DNA of 51,520 nt from Kaiparowitsia implicata GSE-PSE-MK54-09C (lineage in GTDB: Bacteria > Cyanobacteriota > Cyanobacteriia > Elainellales > Elainellaceae), in contig JAHHHI010000099.1 of NCBI GenBank assembly GCA_019359435.1, positions 1 through 51,520 of the forward strand, in the 5' to 3' direction. Below, in pieces: positions 22,581 to 48,685 of this stretch (position 1 is the first letter of the stretch; each line of letters starts with the position of its first letter). Under the pieces are notes generated by a model. That model saw only the letters and a list, made by a program, of their open reading frames with translations, made no database searches and was not told the origin of the DNA. Made by a program: the position numbers and the translations under genes.

Positions 22581-23546
22581 CTACATCTGCCTTAGATGGT
22601 GGAGGCTGAAGAGCTGCTGCTTATCTACCCACACCTGTACAGGATGGAATCCGGCCTCCATCGCTAGCAGTTGAAACTCGTCGATGGTGTATTTGTAGGA
22701 GTGCTCGGTGCGCAGGGTTTCGCCCTTGCAGAAGGGGATCTCGGCATCGCTCAGGTGGACGGTTTGGTCGCAGAGGCTGGCGATCGCCATCTCGATCCGC
22801 CCTTGGGCTTCGTTATAGTGCGCCCGATACTCAAACTGGCTCAGGTCAAAGTCGGCCTCCAGTTCCCGGTTGATTCTTGTCAGCACATTCAGCGCAAAAG
22901 CGGCAGAAACCCCTTGGGCATCGTCGTAGGCGGGTTCGAGAATAATCGGAGATTTCTTTAGATCTACCCCAACGATTAAATCGCCCAGCACCGCCACGGT
23001 TTTGAGAAAGCTGATCACCTCGGCAGGCTCCAGATTGCCAATCGAAGAGCCGGGGAAAAAGCCGATGGTGGGGTGATTTTGTAGCTCTGGGATGGCAGCG
23101 ATGGGCAGGGGCTGGGTGTAGTCGGCACAGACTGCGATCGCATCCAACCTTTCAAAATCGGCCATCAGCGCTGCGCAGGCCTCTTGCAGGTGCTGCCGCG
23201 AAATATCGACCCCCACGTAGGTCGTTACCTGGAGCGCAGCCTTGAGCAAAATGCGAATCTTCTGGCTGCTGCCGCTGCCCAGTTCCACCAGGGCACTATG
23301 ATCCAACGCCGCCGCAACCTCCCCAGCATTGTCCTGAAGAATCTGCATCTCGGTGCGGGTGAGGTAATACTCCGGCAGCTGGCAAATAGCGTCAAACAGC
23401 TCAGACCCCCGCTTGTCGTAGAGAAACTGAGGCGACAGCATCTTCTGCGGCAGGCTCAGCCCCCGCAGCACCGCGCTGCGGAAGTCTTCTATCGGCGGGT
23501 GAAAGTCGTAGAGCTTAACGGGGGAGGGTTTGGTTTGTGAGGGCAT
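22581..23546 (-). CDS. egtD: L-histidine N-alpha-methyltransferase EgtD
   Basis: Trimethylates histidine to hercynine with S-adenosylmethionine, the first step of ergothioneine synthesis. The 321-residue protein has the family N-terminal block SPQFLYDKRGSELFDAICQL and PEYYLTRTE, the SAM motif LVELGSGSSQK, and GFFPGSSIGNLEP. The C-terminal part contains AFALNVLTRINRELEADFD and the substrate-site region IEMAIASL. Length fits the family. It follows egtB on the same strand with a 76-base gap holding an AT-rich inverted repeat, so the two are probably one operon. Ergothioneine is an antioxidant thiol. Confidence 0.95.
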   Translation of the reverse strand: MPSQTKPSPVKLYDFHPPIEDFRSAVLRGLSLPQKMLSPQFLYDKRGSELFDAICQLPEYYLTRTEMQILQDNAGEVAAALDHSALVELGSGSSQKIRILLKAALQVTTYVGVDISRQHLQEACAALMADFERLDAIAVCADYTQPLPIAAIPELQNHPTIGFFPGSSIGNLEPAEVISFLKTVAVLGDLIVGVDLKKSPIILEPAYDDAQGVSAAFALNVLTRINRELEADFDLSQFEYRAHYNEAQGRIEMAIASLCDQTVHLSDAEIPFCKGETLRTEHSYKYTIDEFQLLAMEAGFHPVQVWVDKQQLFSLHHLRQM

Positions 23547-23584
23547 AGGGATAGATGGGAAAATGGGGATATGGGGAAAGTTTT

Positions 23585-23631
23585 GAGTTTTGAGTTTTGA
23601 ATTGCATGTCCTAATTCAAAACTCAAAACTC
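23585..23631. repeat. AT-rich inverted repeat between egtB and egtD
   Basis: A perfect 19-bp stem (23585-23603 with 23613-23631) is built from iterations of GAGTTTT and overlaps the last codons of egtB. It may stabilise or attenuate the egtB-egtD message. Such GAGTTTTGAGTTTTG iterations are probably slippage-born. Confidence 0.7.
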
Positions 23632-24906
23632 TCTAGCTAAACGCAGGCCGCTAAACTGCCACCGGGCGCTGGGCGGAAAGAAATTGCGGTAGCTGGGGCG
23701 AATATGACCCGGTGGGGTGACGCAGGAGCCGCCGCGCAACACCATTTGGTTGCACATGAACTTGCCGTTGTACTCGCCGACGGCACCGGGGGCGGGGCGA
23801 AAGCCGGGGTAGGGCAGATAGGCGCTTTGAGTCCACTCCCAGGTGTCGCCGTAGAGCTGTTGGAGTTTCTGGTTGCCAGATGTGGGCTGGGGGTGCAGGT
23901 GGTCGGCAGCCAGAAGGTTGCCTTGGATGGATACCCCTGAGGCGGCGACTTCCCATTCGGCTTCGGTGGGCAGGCGATCGCCCCGCCAGGTGGCAAAGGC
24001 ATCGGCCTCGAAGTAGCTCAGGTGGCACACGGGTTCGGCTGGGTTGACGGGCTGCATGCCGACCAGGGTAAACGCCCACCAGTCGCCATCGCGCTGCTCC
24101 CAGTAGAGGGGAGCCTGCCAGGCTTCGCTCTGCACCGTGGCCCAGCCCTCGGCTAGCCAGTGGGCGGCGGTCTGGTAGCCCTTGTCGGCGATGAATTCTA
24201 AATATTCGCCGTTGGTGACAGGACGGTTGGCTAGGGCAAAGTCTTGCAGGTAGACCCGGTGGGCCGGGCCTTCGTTGTCGAAGGCAAACCCAGGGGCCTG
24301 GTGGCCCAGGTCGTACAGCCCGCCGGGGAATTCTACAAACTCCAGCGGCGTTGGGGATATGGATTTTGCCAGGGCGATATCCGGGCGGTAGGCGGGGCGC
24401 AGGGGGTTGAGCGCCAGGTTGTATTTGAGGTCGGTGAGCAATAGTTCCTGATGCTGCTGTTCGTGATGCAGTCCGAGAGTGGTTAGCTCTGCCACGGCGG
24501 GATGGTCGACCTGCTGCAAAAGCTGCTCCATGGCCCTATCCACATAGGCGCGGTACTGGTAGACCTCAGCTACCGTGGGCCGCGACAGCAGGCCGCGCTG
24601 GGGGCGGGGGTGGCGATCGCCCACTGCCTCATAGTAGGAGTTAAATAAATACCCGTAGCCGGGATGAAATTCTCCATAGCCCTCTAGATAGGGGCGCAGC
24701 AAAAAGGTTTCAAAAAACCAGGTGGTGTGTGCCAGATGCCACTTGGGCGGGCTGACATCGGCCATGGCCTGCACGCCGTAGTCTTCAATTTCGAGGGATT
24801 GGCAGAGGACTGCGCTGAGGTGGCGTACGGTCTGATACTGGCCGATTAGATCTGTATTCGCCAGATCGACCGCTAAAACCAGAGCAGCTGGGGAAGAAAG
24901 GGTCAT
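23623..24906 (-). CDS. egtB: ergothioneine sulfoxide synthase EgtB
   Basis: A non-heme iron enzyme that joins hercynine to a thiol with oxygen, forming the C-S bond of ergothioneine. The 427-residue protein has an N-terminal DinB-like domain with candidate iron ligands in WHLAH (57-60) and the pair His148/His152 in HHEQQHQELLLTD. The C-terminal formylglycine-generating-enzyme-like domain shows NRPVTNGEYLEFI, RLPTEAEWEVAA, GDTWEWTQS and VLRGGSCVTPPGH. No egtC or egtA is present, so whether gamma-glutamylcysteine or cysteine is used is open. It is the first gene of an egtB-egtD pair. Confidence 0.95.
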   Translation of the reverse strand: MTLSSPAALVLAVDLANTDLIGQYQTVRHLSAVLCQSLEIEDYGVQAMADVSPPKWHLAHTTWFFETFLLRPYLEGYGEFHPGYGYLFNSYYEAVGDRHPRPQRGLLSRPTVAEVYQYRAYVDRAMEQLLQQVDHPAVAELTTLGLHHEQQHQELLLTDLKYNLALNPLRPAYRPDIALAKSISPTPLEFVEFPGGLYDLGHQAPGFAFDNEGPAHRVYLQDFALANRPVTNGEYLEFIADKGYQTAAHWLAEGWATVQSEAWQAPLYWEQRDGDWWAFTLVGMQPVNPAEPVCHLSYFEADAFATWRGDRLPTEAEWEVAASGVSIQGNLLAADHLHPQPTSGNQKLQQLYGDTWEWTQSAYLPYPGFRPAPGAVGEYNGKFMCNQMVLRGGSCVTPPGHIRPSYRNFFPPSARWQFSGLRLAREF

Positions 24907-44164: not shown

Positions 44165-44290
44165 AAGTGACGTTAACGTCACTTCAGCAAATGTATAAAA
44201 CCGTTCTGCTCGCGACGCAGGCAGGATGGTTTTGCGCTGTTTTAGCCCCGCGCTGTGAAGCCAAAACAACGCGATCGCACTTACGTGACT
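44165..44290 (+). repeat. dispersed two-hairpin repeat, copy C, with flanking palindrome
   Basis: A 20-bp perfect palindrome (44165-44184) abuts the family entry TTCAGCAAATGTATAAAACC. The first stem pairs 44197-44209 with 44221-44233 (11 of 13). The second pairs GCGCTGTTTT (44234-44243) with 44263-44272 (9 of 10). The element ends at the arsS stop codon. Confidence 0.7.
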
Positions 44291-45441
44291 TAAGTATCCA
44301 GCGCGCCACCGCAAGAACTGCCTGCTCCTGCCGTGCAGCCAAAGCAATGTCGAGCCGTGCGAATTTGACGGGCAGACAGCGAAGTGGGTTCAAAGTCTTG
44401 AATATGGGTAGAACCGCCGTCAGATAGTGCGCCCTCCATATCCAGCATTTGGTTAAAATCGCAGTCGTACAGCCGTCCATCCCAGGAAATAGATAGGGTG
44501 TTGCGACACATTAGACCGCTGATGGTGGCGGGGTTAAAGGCGTTGACCAGCAGCTCCATATATCGATTCAGGTTGCCCGATTCTTGCAGCCACTCTAAGT
44601 AACGGGAAATCGGCATGTTGTTGAGAGTAATCAGCCGATCAAATCGAATTCCATAGTTGTTGGCTAGTCCCGCTTTCCATTCAGTTTCAAGCTTGCTCTG
44701 GCTGCTAGCGAGAAATGCACCCACAGGATTAGAGACGAGGGTCAGCCGTCGCTGTGGATGCCCATCGCCATAGCCTACGGCGTTGAGCCGCCGCAGGGCT
44801 TCGATGGATTTTTCGAAGGTGCCGTCGCCGCGCTGGGCGTCGGTGTTGCGACGGCGATAATGGGGCAGTGAGCAGACGATTTCGACATTGCGTTCGGCAA
44901 GCCAGTGAGGCAAATCATCCATTGTGGGCAATAGCAGCACGGTGAGGTTGCAGCGGTCGATCACATGCTTGCCGCGTTTAGTGCATTCTTCCACTACATA
45001 GCGGAAGTGGGGATTGAGTTCTGGAGCCCCGCCTGTAAGGTCAACGGTGTGGGCGGTGGTTTGATCGAGTGCGCGGAGGCAGGCGTCTACCGTATTTCGC
45101 GTCATAACTTCGCGGCGATCGGGGCCCGCATCCACATGGCAGTGGCGACAGGTCATGTTGCATAACTTGCCTAGGTTCATTTGAAAGATTTCTAGAGACT
45201 GCGGGGTTAGTGTGGCGCAGCCGTGTGCGGCTAGGGTGGCATCAAAGTCGCCGCTGTCTGCGGCTAAGGGCACCTGCTCAAGGAGGGCGAGTTGTGCTTG
45301 GGGATCTGCCAAGGGCGATCGCCGGTTTAGCAAGGATGATGGGGCGGGCGTACCAGTCTGGGAAAACCCTGACGTCTCCAGTGATTTGGCAGCCGGTGGG
45401 GTTGGATGGAGATTGGTCAATGTAGTCCGAGAATCAGTCAT
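44290..45441 (-). CDS. arsS: arsenosugar biosynthesis radical SAM protein ArsS
   Basis: A 383-residue radical SAM enzyme implicated in adding the adenosyl part to methylated arsenic on the way to arsenosugars. The 4Fe-4S cysteines are in LCNMTCRHCHVDAGP. Downstream blocks DLTGGAPELNPHFRY, CNLTVLL and MCRNTLSISWDGRLYDCDFNQ, and the C-terminal cysteine region HCFGCTAGAGSSCGG, fit ArsS with its DUF3641-like end. The ATG at 45441 has AAAGG eight bases upstream. It follows a CMD-like gene on the same strand with a 256-base gap. No arsM methyltransferase is in the window. Confidence 0.93.
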   Translation of the reverse strand: MTDSRTTLTNLHPTPPAAKSLETSGFSQTGTPAPSSLLNRRSPLADPQAQLALLEQVPLAADSGDFDATLAAHGCATLTPQSLEIFQMNLGKLCNMTCRHCHVDAGPDRREVMTRNTVDACLRALDQTTAHTVDLTGGAPELNPHFRYVVEECTKRGKHVIDRCNLTVLLLPTMDDLPHWLAERNVEIVCSLPHYRRRNTDAQRGDGTFEKSIEALRRLNAVGYGDGHPQRRLTLVSNPVGAFLASSQSKLETEWKAGLANNYGIRFDRLITLNNMPISRYLEWLQESGNLNRYMELLVNAFNPATISGLMCRNTLSISWDGRLYDCDFNQMLDMEGALSDGGSTHIQDFEPTSLSARQIRTARHCFGCTAGAGSSCGGALDT

Positions 45442-45697: not shown

Positions 45698-46030
45698 CTA
45701 CATGCCGAGTTGCTTGACCTGATCGAGCATTTGCAGCCCATGAACCAGAGACGCCCCGCCCCGAATAGCAGTGGCTACATGCACGGCTTCTGTCATCTGC
45801 TCTAGGTCGGCTCCTTCTTGTAGACTGGCTTTGCTGTAGGCGTCAATGCAGTAAGGGCATTGCACTGTGTGGGACACCGCTAGCGCAATCAGCGCTTTTT
45901 CACGAGATGAGAGCGCACCTTCTGCAAAAACGGCGCTGTAATAGTCAAAAAACTTTTTCGCTAGTTCTGGGCTGCCCTCGCTAATGCTGCCAAACTGATC
46001 CAGATGTTCTGGCTTGTAGTACTGATCCAT
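45698..46030 (-). CDS. carboxymuconolactone-decarboxylase-like protein of the arsenosugar operon
   Basis: A 110-residue AhpD/CMD-fold protein. The redox motif CPYCIDAYSKASL follows the helix AVSHTVQ; the conserved block MTEAVHVATAIRGGASLVHG is at the C-terminal half. Proteins of this type are found with arsS in cyanobacteria and are annotated as arsenosugar-biosynthesis-associated peroxidase-like; the CxxC pair suggests thiol redox chemistry. It lies 256 bases upstream of arsS on the same strand, so the two are probably co-transcribed. The ATG at 46030 gives the standard N-terminus (MDQYYKPEHLDQFG). Confidence 0.9.
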   Translation of the reverse strand: MDQYYKPEHLDQFGSISEGSPELAKKFFDYYSAVFAEGALSSREKALIALAVSHTVQCPYCIDAYSKASLQEGADLEQMTEAVHVATAIRGGASLVHGLQMLDQVKQLGM

Positions 46031-46387
46031 AGTTGAGTTTGTAGGGGTTAAGAAGATTGCTTTGGGCGCATGCTTGAGCTTTTAGCGTTGCACATTCAGG
46101 GTGAGACGGCATGGCAGCATCAAAAACTGCCTCATGCCTGTTCTGTTATCTCAGGTTGATCATTGCCATTCTGCCGTACACCGAGTTAATCCCGTCTTTC
46201 AGCTTTCCTGTTATTTTGGGTTTGTGCTTCATTAAACTGGATCAAGCTTAAAACGGGCTGAGATAACGTAAATTCGGCAAATTTCTAAAACCGCTTTAGA
46301 AAGCTGGGCATAATAAGCTAGGAATTTTGATGCTGTTGCAGGGGCGATCGCCCTTGAATGGCGCATACAACGTGCAGGAATAGGGCA
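46031..46387. other. divergent intergenic region with truncated repeat F
   Basis: Between the CMD-like gene (minus) and the triple-repeat gene (plus). It contains a truncated copy of the dispersed repeat (46269-46300). Promoters for both are expected here. No gene is supported. Confidence 0.45.
46269..46300 (+). repeat. dispersed repeat, truncated copy F
   Basis: Shares the family entry AAATTCGGCAAAT and TCTAAAACCG, then diverges. It lacks the second stem. Given short length, this assignment is less sure than for the other copies. Confidence 0.4.
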
Positions 46388-47680
46388 GTGCCGCTTTCCG
46401 TCGAAGATATTGTTTATGAATTTGAACAAGACCAGAGCTTACGGATTAAGAAGCTGCTGGTCTATGCCTGCAAGAACATTTGGGAAAGCGATTCTTATCG
46501 GCTCGACTATTTTGATGTGTCAAGTTTGGTGCGAGAGCTGATGCAGCTAGCGCCGACGGCGGAGCATCTAGAGGAGCGGTTGAACCAAGCGGTTGCCAGT
46601 TTAAGTAAAGCGGCTGAATATCGACTGGTGGCCCAGGCTATTCTGGCTCAGGTGTCCCTGTTGTATCCGACGGTGGCGGCTAGAACAGATGCGGCGGAGA
46701 ATGCAAACCTAGCGCCTGAGGTGGTTGCAGCGGCGGCTGCACTAGACGCTGAGGCCGAGCACCACCGGATGAAGAAGCTGCTCTATTGCGCCTGCCGCCA
46801 GCTTTGGGAGAATGATCCAATCGTGCTGGGACAGGTGCAGATGGCAGAGTTGGTGCAGGAGGTGCGATCGCTCGCTGCAGATCTGCCGACGCTAACGCAG
46901 GCGCTAGAGAGCATTGTGGACTCGCTGAACCGTCGGGCTGAGTATACCCAGATTGCGCAGACGGTCTTAGGGGCGATCGCCCCCCTCTATCCCTCTGGTT
47001 CCCCCTCGGCTGATCCGCCTAGTGGTGACTCGACAACAGTTACGGCGATCGCCATCGGACGCCCGCTGCCGCCGCCATCCAAACTGGGCAGAGGTGCTGG
47101 CGCAGGGCTACACAATGCCCCCACGCCCCTCACACCTAGCGCTGCGCCGATGCCTGCGGACACGCAGCCGCAGCACCCAGATAGCCACAGGGTGGCTGGA
47201 AATAGCGCAACTAGAAACGGGGCGATCGCTCTCAGCCTTAGATCGCACGGGCGATCGCCCGACGCCGCTACCCTAATGGATCTGCGGCTAGAGGTCATGA
47301 ACTACTGCAACCCCCTACGGGCCAAGGTGTTGCTCTATTCCGCCCTACATACGCCCCTGCCACCCCAGCTAGAGGGTTGGGAAGTGCTGCGCGCTCACAA
47401 TTTAGCAAGCCTGTTGCAGGCATTGGTGCAGCGGTATAGCAGCTATGCTGTGTTGCAAACTCAGATGCAGCAAACTGCTGAGCTTCTAGAACCGACTGAG
47501 GTTTACCAGCAAGCAGCCAGCGCAATTTTGAGGGCCGTGCGATCGCTCTATCCAGGTGCCTCAGACCCAGATCCTGCAGCTCATTTACCCGCTATCCAGA
47601 TAGAACATGCCGCCTCGGTGCCCCCAGCAGACCGCCACCCGACGACGGGAGAACCTGCCAAAACACACTTGAGTCCTTAA
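46388..47680 (+). CDS. protein with three tandem helical repeats, unknown function
   Basis: About 430 residues built from three copies of an ~78-residue all-helical unit: repeat 1 (about 17-94), repeat 2 (126-202) and repeat 3 (310-389). Each has a KKLLVYACK / KKLLYCACR / AKVLLYSAL opening and ends with LYP (SLLYP, PLYP, SLYP). Repeats 2 and 3 are separated by a Pro/Ala/Ser-rich linker of ~105 residues. I do not recognise the unit. The GTG at 46388 begins VPLSVEDIVYEFEQDQ; an in-frame ATG lies at 46358. Only 12 bases separate its stop from the pentapeptide gene, so they form an operon. Confidence 0.75.
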   Translation: MPLSVEDIVYEFEQDQSLRIKKLLVYACKNIWESDSYRLDYFDVSSLVRELMQLAPTAEHLEERLNQAVASLSKAAEYRLVAQAILAQVSLLYPTVAARTDAAENANLAPEVVAAAAALDAEAEHHRMKKLLYCACRQLWENDPIVLGQVQMAELVQEVRSLAADLPTLTQALESIVDSLNRRAEYTQIAQTVLGAIAPLYPSGSPSADPPSGDSTTVTAIAIGRPLPPPSKLGRGAGAGLHNAPTPLTPSAAPMPADTQPQHPDSHRVAGNSATRNGAIALSLRSHGRSPDAATLMDLRLEVMNYCNPLRAKVLLYSALHTPLPPQLEGWEVLRAHNLASLLQALVQRYSSYAVLQTQMQQTAELLEPTEVYQQAASAILRAVRSLYPGASDPDPAAHLPAIQIEHAASVPPADRHPTTGEPAKTHLSP

Positions 47681-47692
47681 GGGGTAGTCGTT

Positions 47693-48685
47693 GTGGATAT
47701 TCAGGAACTACTCCAGCGTTACGCAGCAAACCAAATCAACTTTTCTGGCATTAGTCTCACAGGGAGCGACCTGACCGCCGCTGATTTAATTGGCATTGAC
47801 TTGAGCCAGGCAGACTTGCGCCACAGCACCTTGGCCCTGGCCTATCTCAACCGTGCCGACCTCAGCCGGGCGACTCTAGCTCGCGCTAATCTCATGGGCA
47901 TTAATCTGAGTCAAGCTAACTTAGTGGGCGCTATTTTGCGCGATGCCGACTTGCATGGGGCTACGCTGCGCGGGGCCGACCTCCGCAGTGCCGATCTGTC
48001 TCTCGCGAATCTGTGTGATGCGGATCTGTGCGACGCGGATTTACGCAATACAGAACTCAGCGGTGCCAACCTGTCTGGAGCCTGCCTCCGTGGCGCGAAC
48101 CTGCGTGAGGAAAACCGCCGCTACGTGGCCAACCTGCGGGGTGCCAACCTTTGTCATGCCGACTTGCGTGGGGCTAATTTAACCGGAGCCGACCTGGCGC
48201 AAGTTAATTTGCAAGGAGCCGATTTGCGCGAAGCTATGCTGCGCGGGGCGGATCTGCGTGGCGCCAACTTAAATGAGGTGAACCTCAGCGGAGCCTTTTT
48301 GACGGAAGCCGTGCTGACCCAAGCCAGCCTCTATCGCGCCACCCTCACCCAGGCAAAGCTAGAACGGGCTCAGCTGCAAGAGGTTGATTTGAGTGAGGCA
48401 AACCTTGACCGCGCCATTTTGCCAGATGCCAAGCTGACCAAGGCGCGTCTGGTGCGAGCGGTGCTCACCCAAGCTCAGCTAAGCCGTGTCGATCTGAGTC
48501 GAGCCACGCTTCGCAGCGCTAACCTCACGGCAGCTCATTTGACCGATGCCTATCTGGCGCGGGCTGATTTTACGGATGCTGATCTGACCGATGCCAACTT
48601 AACCCGAGCTGAACTCAGCAGCAGCCACTTGACCCGGGCCATCTTAACTAGGGCGACCATGCCAGACGGCTCCATTCATGAATGA
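47693..48685 (+). CDS. pentapeptide-repeat protein
   Basis: A 330-residue protein almost wholly made of pentapeptide repeats (A(D/N)LXX), for example SQADLRHSTLALAYLNRADL and RGADLRSADLSLANLCDADL. They should form a right-handed quadrilateral beta-helix. The N-terminal ~20 residues (MDIQELLQRYAANQINFSGI) are helical, a common cap. The repeat register is briefly broken at about residue 140 (REENRRYVAN). The GTG at 47693 has AAGGGG upstream. Cyanobacterial pentapeptide proteins are often of unknown function; this one follows the triple-repeat gene by 12 bases and probably shares its role. Confidence 0.9.
   Translation: MDIQELLQRYAANQINFSGISLTGSDLTAADLIGIDLSQADLRHSTLALAYLNRADLSRATLARANLMGINLSQANLVGAILRDADLHGATLRGADLRSADLSLANLCDADLCDADLRNTELSGANLSGACLRGANLREENRRYVANLRGANLCHADLRGANLTGADLAQVNLQGADLREAMLRGADLRGANLNEVNLSGAFLTEAVLTQASLYRATLTQAKLERAQLQEVDLSEANLDRAILPDAKLTKARLVRAVLTQAQLSRVDLSRATLRSANLTAAHLTDAYLARADFTDADLTDANLTRAELSSSHLTRAILTRATMPDGSIHE

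Follow-up and report, generated by a model that had tools for sequence, protein, structure and literature searches.

Some cyanobacteria carry dozens of pentapeptide-repeat proteins (PMC7337050, in its available text), the biochemical functions of which a 2021 review, in its available part, calls almost completely unknown (PMC8145042). Among the closest described systems is that of HetL which, in the available portion of its description, binds the hood domain of HetR and sets a precedent for the binding of a regulator by a pentapeptide protein; the same source called this pair, in 2020, the second protein complex identified for the pentapeptide family (PMC7476756). The accessible text of a pan-genome study also reports a co-occurrence module made up of a pentapeptide protein, a Ser/Thr kinase and an enzyme of the proline pathway, the proteins of which may or may not be those described here (PMC5862535). 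The gene pair studied here, A and B, was picked out by the original prediction as a candidate for an undescribed two-component system. It is a real and widely kept two-gene module, and apparently an undescribed one: no account of it was found in the open-licence literature searched (pentapeptide proteins and their neighbours, cyclases, conservation and partners). Slr1818/slr1819 were considered as its Synechocystis counterparts; no claim is made for them, and one paper calls slr1819 a hypothetical protein.

The pair lies in a stretch of 51,520 nucleotides from Kaiparowitsia implicata GSE-PSE-MK54-09C, hereafter the window, and both genes are on its forward strand. Gene A (46388-47680) encodes an apparently adaptor-like protein with three six-helix units, of 430 amino acids when counted from GTG 46388; the open frame extends to an ATG at 46358 (440 amino acids) and ends with a TAA stop at 47678-47680. 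The GTG seems the likelier start, since the resulting MPLSVEDIV... fits the starts of relatives (VVLSISNPV in locus L040, MKALSILDEV in L123). With residues counted from 46358, the unit HMM places two type-1 units at 46409-46666 (residues 18-103, also seen in the AlphaFold model) and 46730-46990 (residues 125-211). They are followed by a mostly low-confidence linker rich in Pro, Ala and Ser (46991-47281, residues 212-308) and by a third unit, of the C-type, with the motif NPLRAK (47282-47551, residues 309-398), whose presence tracks that of B. The three helical units first read from the sequence are thus recovered, but their length is about 86-90 residues rather than about 78, and the third belongs to a separate subtype instead of being a further copy. 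AlphaFold modelling, which had been suggested as a check, predicts six helices in each unit, with pLDDT mostly >90; modelled alone from a 71-sequence alignment, residues 112-217, which hold the second unit, reach a mean pLDDT of 91.4 and a pTM of 0.83.

Exactly 12 bases (47681-47692) separate the stop of A from the GTG of B at 47693, as had been noted at the outset, and a consensus scan predicted no terminator between the two genes. Gene B (47693-48685) encodes a protein of 330 amino acids whose assignment to the pentapeptide-repeat proteins is borne out by PF00805 (E = 4.7e-99, 323.7 bits for a cut-off of 20.2, in 12 stretches). Its five-residue register is broken by the family-conserved EENRRYV (48107-48127, residues 139-145), assumed to be a loop, and a conserved motif, MPDG, lies close to the C-terminus (48659-48670, residues 323-326). 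In the first alignment, of 35 B sequences, identity to the B of the window ranges from 47 to 70% and length hardly varies. In a larger alignment of 131 sequences, several of the best-conserved positions fall outside the A(D/N)LXX pattern, among them H88, C131, Y51, Y144, Y287, E140, E307, R93, R133, R138 and the terminal MPDG, and the outward positions have a mean conservation score of 2.89 in pentapeptides 13-25, against 2.27-2.44 elsewhere. This pattern fits what would be expected of a binding surface, which is not to say that it proves one.

Among named pentapeptide families, B scores 208.6 bits against the HetL equivalog (NF047416), below the cut-off of 260, and 228.9 bits against the Alr5209 equivalog (NF052603), above the cut-off of 125. 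The Alr5209 model matches all 35 of the B relatives scanned. This looks like over-calling, since the model covers 113 positions, compared with the 330 residues of B, and apparently sums over repeats; 330-residue proteins of the B type may carry a wrong Alr5209 name in public annotation. In a PDB sequence search with B, HetL (3du1, All3740, 165 bits) is the best entry other than 'beta1' constructs, which we take to be designed proteins.

The repeat unit of A, which could not be placed when the sequence was first read, has found no described family since. For the A of the window, Pfam offers nothing below E = 0.4, and neither NCBIfam nor the PDB sequences yield a match; among 48 units compared with Pfam one by one, no family recurs in a second unit (best E 0.0026). 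A profile of the unit retrieves from the PDB sequences four best rows (E = 1.9e-6 to 0.0016, over 32-37 positions) that correspond to a designed helical repeat protein and coiled-coil constructs; none of the stretches passes alone, and these are taken for helix-composition matches. Fold searches with the whole A and with one unit (Foldseek against the PDB, and VIA-align 2) and with one unit (viral library) returned nothing significant. The best VIA Z scores are 4.7 for the whole A model and 4.1 for the unit, values that mean little for helical bundles and do not prove the fold to be new; the best E is 0.69, in the viral library, where the most probable match (0.72) is nameless. The weak matches, none of them significant, include the FAS death domain (Z 2.6) and Pyrin entries (a viral one with probability 0.60 and TM 0.42, and the NALP3 PYD at 0.30), which makes a Death-like six-helix fold for the unit a lead, not a result. 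As far as searched, the unit is a helical domain absent from the family libraries used here, and it comes in two subtypes.

The first search covered 40 genomes, among them that of the window, and found gene A in 34. B adjoins A in 34 of the 35 A-type loci from genomes other than that of the window; the exception, L066, encodes a two-unit protein in a genome that also has a normal pair (L067). The six genomes devoid of A also lack B: three have lesser pentapeptide proteins (≤219.7 bits) and three have nothing at E ≤ 1e-40. Over 93 loci, the window among them, A is followed by B on one strand in 78. Of the other 15, ten encode unit proteins other than A (five have a kinase layout at the N-terminus, three are fused to ComFB, one is a WD40 protein and one is L066), two have B ahead of A (L140, L155) and in three B lies elsewhere in the genome (L136, L152, L157); with G106, the last three make up the four genomes in which A and B are unlinked.

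An initial scan of named genomes with the A of the window gave no match. When loci were found via B, A lay upstream in 77 of the 80 best among 347 named loci, with a median gap of 47 bases (extremes -56 and 1492), in organisms including Leptolyngbya sp. PCC 6406, Spirulina subsalsa, Anabaena sp. UHCC 0187 and Roseofilum halophilum. Of the three misses, L191 is genuine; L189 begins where its contig does, and the 454 bases available upstream in L180 translate, by eye, into the last part of a C-type unit. The 77/80 and 78/93 counts are not independent, because many of the named loci are from the same genomes as the other loci. No direct fusion of A with B occurs in the open frames of the 93 loci. 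Nor is there a conserved third gene in the 83 of these loci that remain once the ten with a non-A-type protein are left out: the largest neighbour cluster, sensor-like by eye, is found in 15, and an ABC transporter gene in 12.

Some peculiar arrangements were also observed. Two loci of one family have two different B copies flanking A (L141, 4894-8308; L156, 4822-8303). In a metagenome-assembled genome (L185, 2921-4148), A lies in three overlapping frames beside an intact B, which may reflect a sequencing error or a decaying gene. Upstream of the pair, the window holds what are presumably an arsenosugar-type radical SAM enzyme-like gene and a small peroxidase-like gene (44290-45441 and 45698-46030, minus strand), and the radical SAM-like gene recurs near the pair in 4 of the 83 loci. 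Further away, two adjacent genes (22581-24906, minus strand) resemble, in our estimation, an ergothioneine-type methyltransferase and sulfoxide synthase.

Genome-wide counts extend the association beyond adjacency. Of the 388 genomes sampled in the class, 249 contain A units and 238 contain B, for which the threshold was E ≤ 1e-75: 238 have both, 11 have A units only, none has B only and 139 have neither. Two drafts barely pass the cut-off for B (G565, 3.4e-76; G576, 5.3e-76), and 236 remain without them. The sample of the phylum gives 90 genomes with both, four with A only, none with B only and 292 with neither, out of 386, and there the B orthologues are separate from other pentapeptide proteins (weakest E = 9.4e-79, best other 3.9e-69). 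Of the two samples, that of the class is preferable, since that of the phylum also includes non-photosynthetic groups (55 of 98 listed as 'same phylum' only). The pairing of A and B is far beyond chance; the counts come from related genomes and no p-value is claimed for them. The joint function first proposed from the tight spacing agrees with this behaviour, the genes being kept and lost together as a unit. Conservation of the pair across cyanobacteria, which was to be checked, is borne out, A units being present in every one of the 238 B-bearing genomes of the class. Neither outcome named beforehand as refuting the first reading, a unit that matches a well-known domain or a pair kept in none of its relatives, was observed.

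The 11 genomes with A units only are informative in themselves. Four (G060, G150, G188, G262) contain only pieces of A, and in two of these (G188 and G262) a remnant of the last quarter of B lies beside the pieces, within the approximately 1.5 kb seen on each side. In another (G577), B is cut by a contig end. The other six (G428, G440, G461, G528, G557, G579) belong to one genus, whose A is made up of a cyclase followed by two type-1 units, without a C-type unit; a second unit gene in G528 likewise has none. This genus, devoid of B and of exactly the C-type unit, amounts to a natural experiment.

The distinction between subtypes was assessed with HMMs trained on 34 loci from relatives and tested on held-out loci, that of the window among them (training loci, L066 and identical sequences were omitted, and three single-piece units from L185 and L187 are outside the 104 that follow). 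Beside B, the last unit is of the C-type in 103 of 104 cases and the inner units are of type 1 in 161 of 161; the sole exception, L185, is a gene split over three frames whose last piece is C-type. All units of the ComFB and WD40 proteins and of L066 are of type 1, and these proteins have no adjacent B, which is found elsewhere in their genomes. In eight cases a C-type protein has no B within the stretch read, and each time its genome has one elsewhere. Judging from these sequences, it is the C-type unit, rather than the unit in general, that goes with B. A mirror-tree comparison over 129 loci, from which shared ancestry was not removed, gives a distance correlation with B of r = 0.64 for the first unit and r = 0.56 for the C-type unit; this co-evolution test fails to single out the C-type unit and does not favour it as the contact.

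Most of the domains joined to the units are signalling parts, which is why an adaptor or signalling reading is proposed. Pfam finds a class III cyclase domain (PF00211) at the N-terminus of 6 of 36 A proteins, and an HMM detects the cyclase in 10 of the 80 best loci among the 347 named ones. Two Asp, a Lys, an Asn and an Arg, presumably the catalytic positions, are kept in all 15 distinct cyclase sequences aligned. Of the five proteins with the kinase layout, Pfam confirms a Ser/Thr kinase domain in the three scanned (L129, L138 and L139), the other two being L142 and L154. Type-1 units also occur in WD40 proteins and in ComFB proteins, and the available text on the ComFB of Synechocystis has it bind c-di-AMP and c-di-GMP (PMC12313861). 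The A of the window has no match to PF00211 and no enzyme domain. In two families, A has an extra C-terminal region of about 80 residues (L123, 5319-7010; L137, 6342-8069; L148, 6159-7832; L143, 6292-8142); these regions are alike by eye, three of them share 'KVHGRQLGNK..W', and those of L123 and L143 have no Pfam match above cut-off. In L118, the middle part looked by eye like a CHAT protease, but Pfam did not bear this out.

The joint function of A and B is close to certain. The explanation that we favour, with about even confidence, is that they are two parts of one intracellular cyanobacterial signalling module, in which A would be the adaptor and its C-type unit would bind B. We infer three components here: binding, regulation of A by B and a second-messenger output. 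Direct docking of the beta-helix of B by the C-terminal six-helix unit is likely, judging from sequence patterns, and the main reason to propose this unit is that it, and not the units in general, tracks B. The type-1 units would couple A to further components of signalling. Several lineages have an A with an N-terminal class III nucleotide cyclase, which would be its own output enzyme; in others, A-like proteins bear an N-terminal Ser/Thr kinase instead; and the enzyme-less A of the window lineage would work in trans. By occupying a helical docking surface, B could control the assembly or the activity of A, in the manner of HetL towards HetR. The signalling output itself is put forward as a hypothesis which, for the enzyme-less A of the window, draws on the fusions found in other lineages. 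In its broadest form, this scenario would make the C-type unit a dedicated receptor domain of a new family and the beta-helix an on/off partner of cyclases and kinases across the Cyanobacteria, that is, a class-wide two-protein system, a generalization that we consider possible but slightly doubtful.

Several other scenarios may explain the pairing. One possibility, which seems unlikely, is that B is the working part, with another target, and that A is an assembly or stability factor whose C-type unit caps the open beta-helix. It would account for the absence, in the genomes read, of any intact A with a C-type unit where B is gone, and for B being far better conserved than A (mean identity of 58%, compared with 37-39% for the units). 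Yet it leaves unexplained the fusions of the units to cyclase, kinase, ComFB and WD40 domains, as well as the persistence of the cyclase-type1-type1 protein in the genus that lacks B.

Alternatively, A could belong to a cell-death or anti-phage system as an effector-associated, Death-like adaptor, with B as its partner. A six-helix unit joined to diverse enzymes does recall the published effector-associated domains (EADs; PMC7159879, in its available part), Pyrin-domain entries are among its weak fold matches, the kinase-fused protein of L129 (5912-7660) scores up to 338 bits with the PADLOC PD-T4-6 anti-phage kinase models, and Pycsar cyclase models give a weak match to the cyclase of L071 (best E = 5.4e-9). 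Nevertheless, none of the fold matches is significant, and the PADLOC kinase and cyclase models, in our judgement, also catch ordinary members of these enzyme families. Membership of EAD1 (PF19955) was rejected, as hhalign gave probabilities of only 8.1 and 12.0% against a set of nine EAD1 domains from cyanobacteria that included two divergent ones. Pfam gave no EAD match for the unit, either in the A of the window or in the 48 single units, and a search for EAD7 was uninformative, its controls having likewise zero matches. Moreover, the A and B of the window match no PADLOC model at E ≤ 0.01, B is mostly single-copy per genome in the class sample, and a comparison of the A of the window with 72,556 plasmid and 50,697 phage records drew no match. 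A defence role thus seems improbable for the pair itself; for the kinase- and cyclase-fused relatives it is conceivable, given their matches to the anti-phage kinase and Pycsar models. Independently of the pair, the window's own genome has two EAD1 matches over cut-off (L248 and L252, contig C6, 16525-21272), possibly an effector-associated system.

The idea of a scaffold or DNA-mimic complex, raised when the pair was first noticed, fares differently in its two halves. A static structural scaffold without signalling, for instance at a membrane surface, would suit two repeat proteins of which one, B, is nearly constant in length with rows of conserved outward residues; we give it only a slim chance, as the enzyme fusions, with cyclases that keep their catalytic positions, point to signalling. 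DNA mimicry, by a gyrase-binding B of the Qnr/MfpA kind under the control of A, is very improbable and was dropped as a leading idea: the fold family is the same and both models match B, but far below their cut-offs (Qnr, 98.6 bits for 240; MfpA, 80.1 for 360), and B is only mildly acidic (net charge -7, with -12 to +6 over 35 family members).

With this pair, one cyanobacterial pentapeptide-repeat protein gains a predicted docking unit and a predicted partner, the latter open to direct testing, and the signalling enzymes fused to relatives of A hint at what to assay.

In comparison with known systems, some A proteins share their N-terminal PF00211 domain with the class III nucleotide cyclases and differ in that the cyclase is followed by six-helix units; the A of the window has no cyclase. 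EADs and the bacterial Death-like domains are, in the available parts of their descriptions, small helical adaptors joined to diverse signalling and effector enzymes (PMC7159879, PMC8195603), and the unit resembles them as one small non-enzymatic domain fused to cyclase, Ser/Thr kinase, ComFB and WD40 partners. Unlike them, it showed no sequence relation to EAD1 and no Pfam match to an EAD, and no conserved third gene accompanies the pair. Alr5209 (Nostoc PCC 7120, 6OMX) resembles B through the NCBIfam model that bears its name, but has 129 residues and is encoded, according to the available text, in alr5208-alr5212 together with a hybrid sensor and an NADH dehydrogenase (PMC7337050). A further parallel is HetL-HetR of Nostoc PCC 7120, also a pentapeptide-repeat protein with a regulatory partner, from which the pair described here differs in that B has 330 amino acids, its own register break and end motif and a score below the HetL cut-off, and in that its proposed partner, A, is its operon neighbour.
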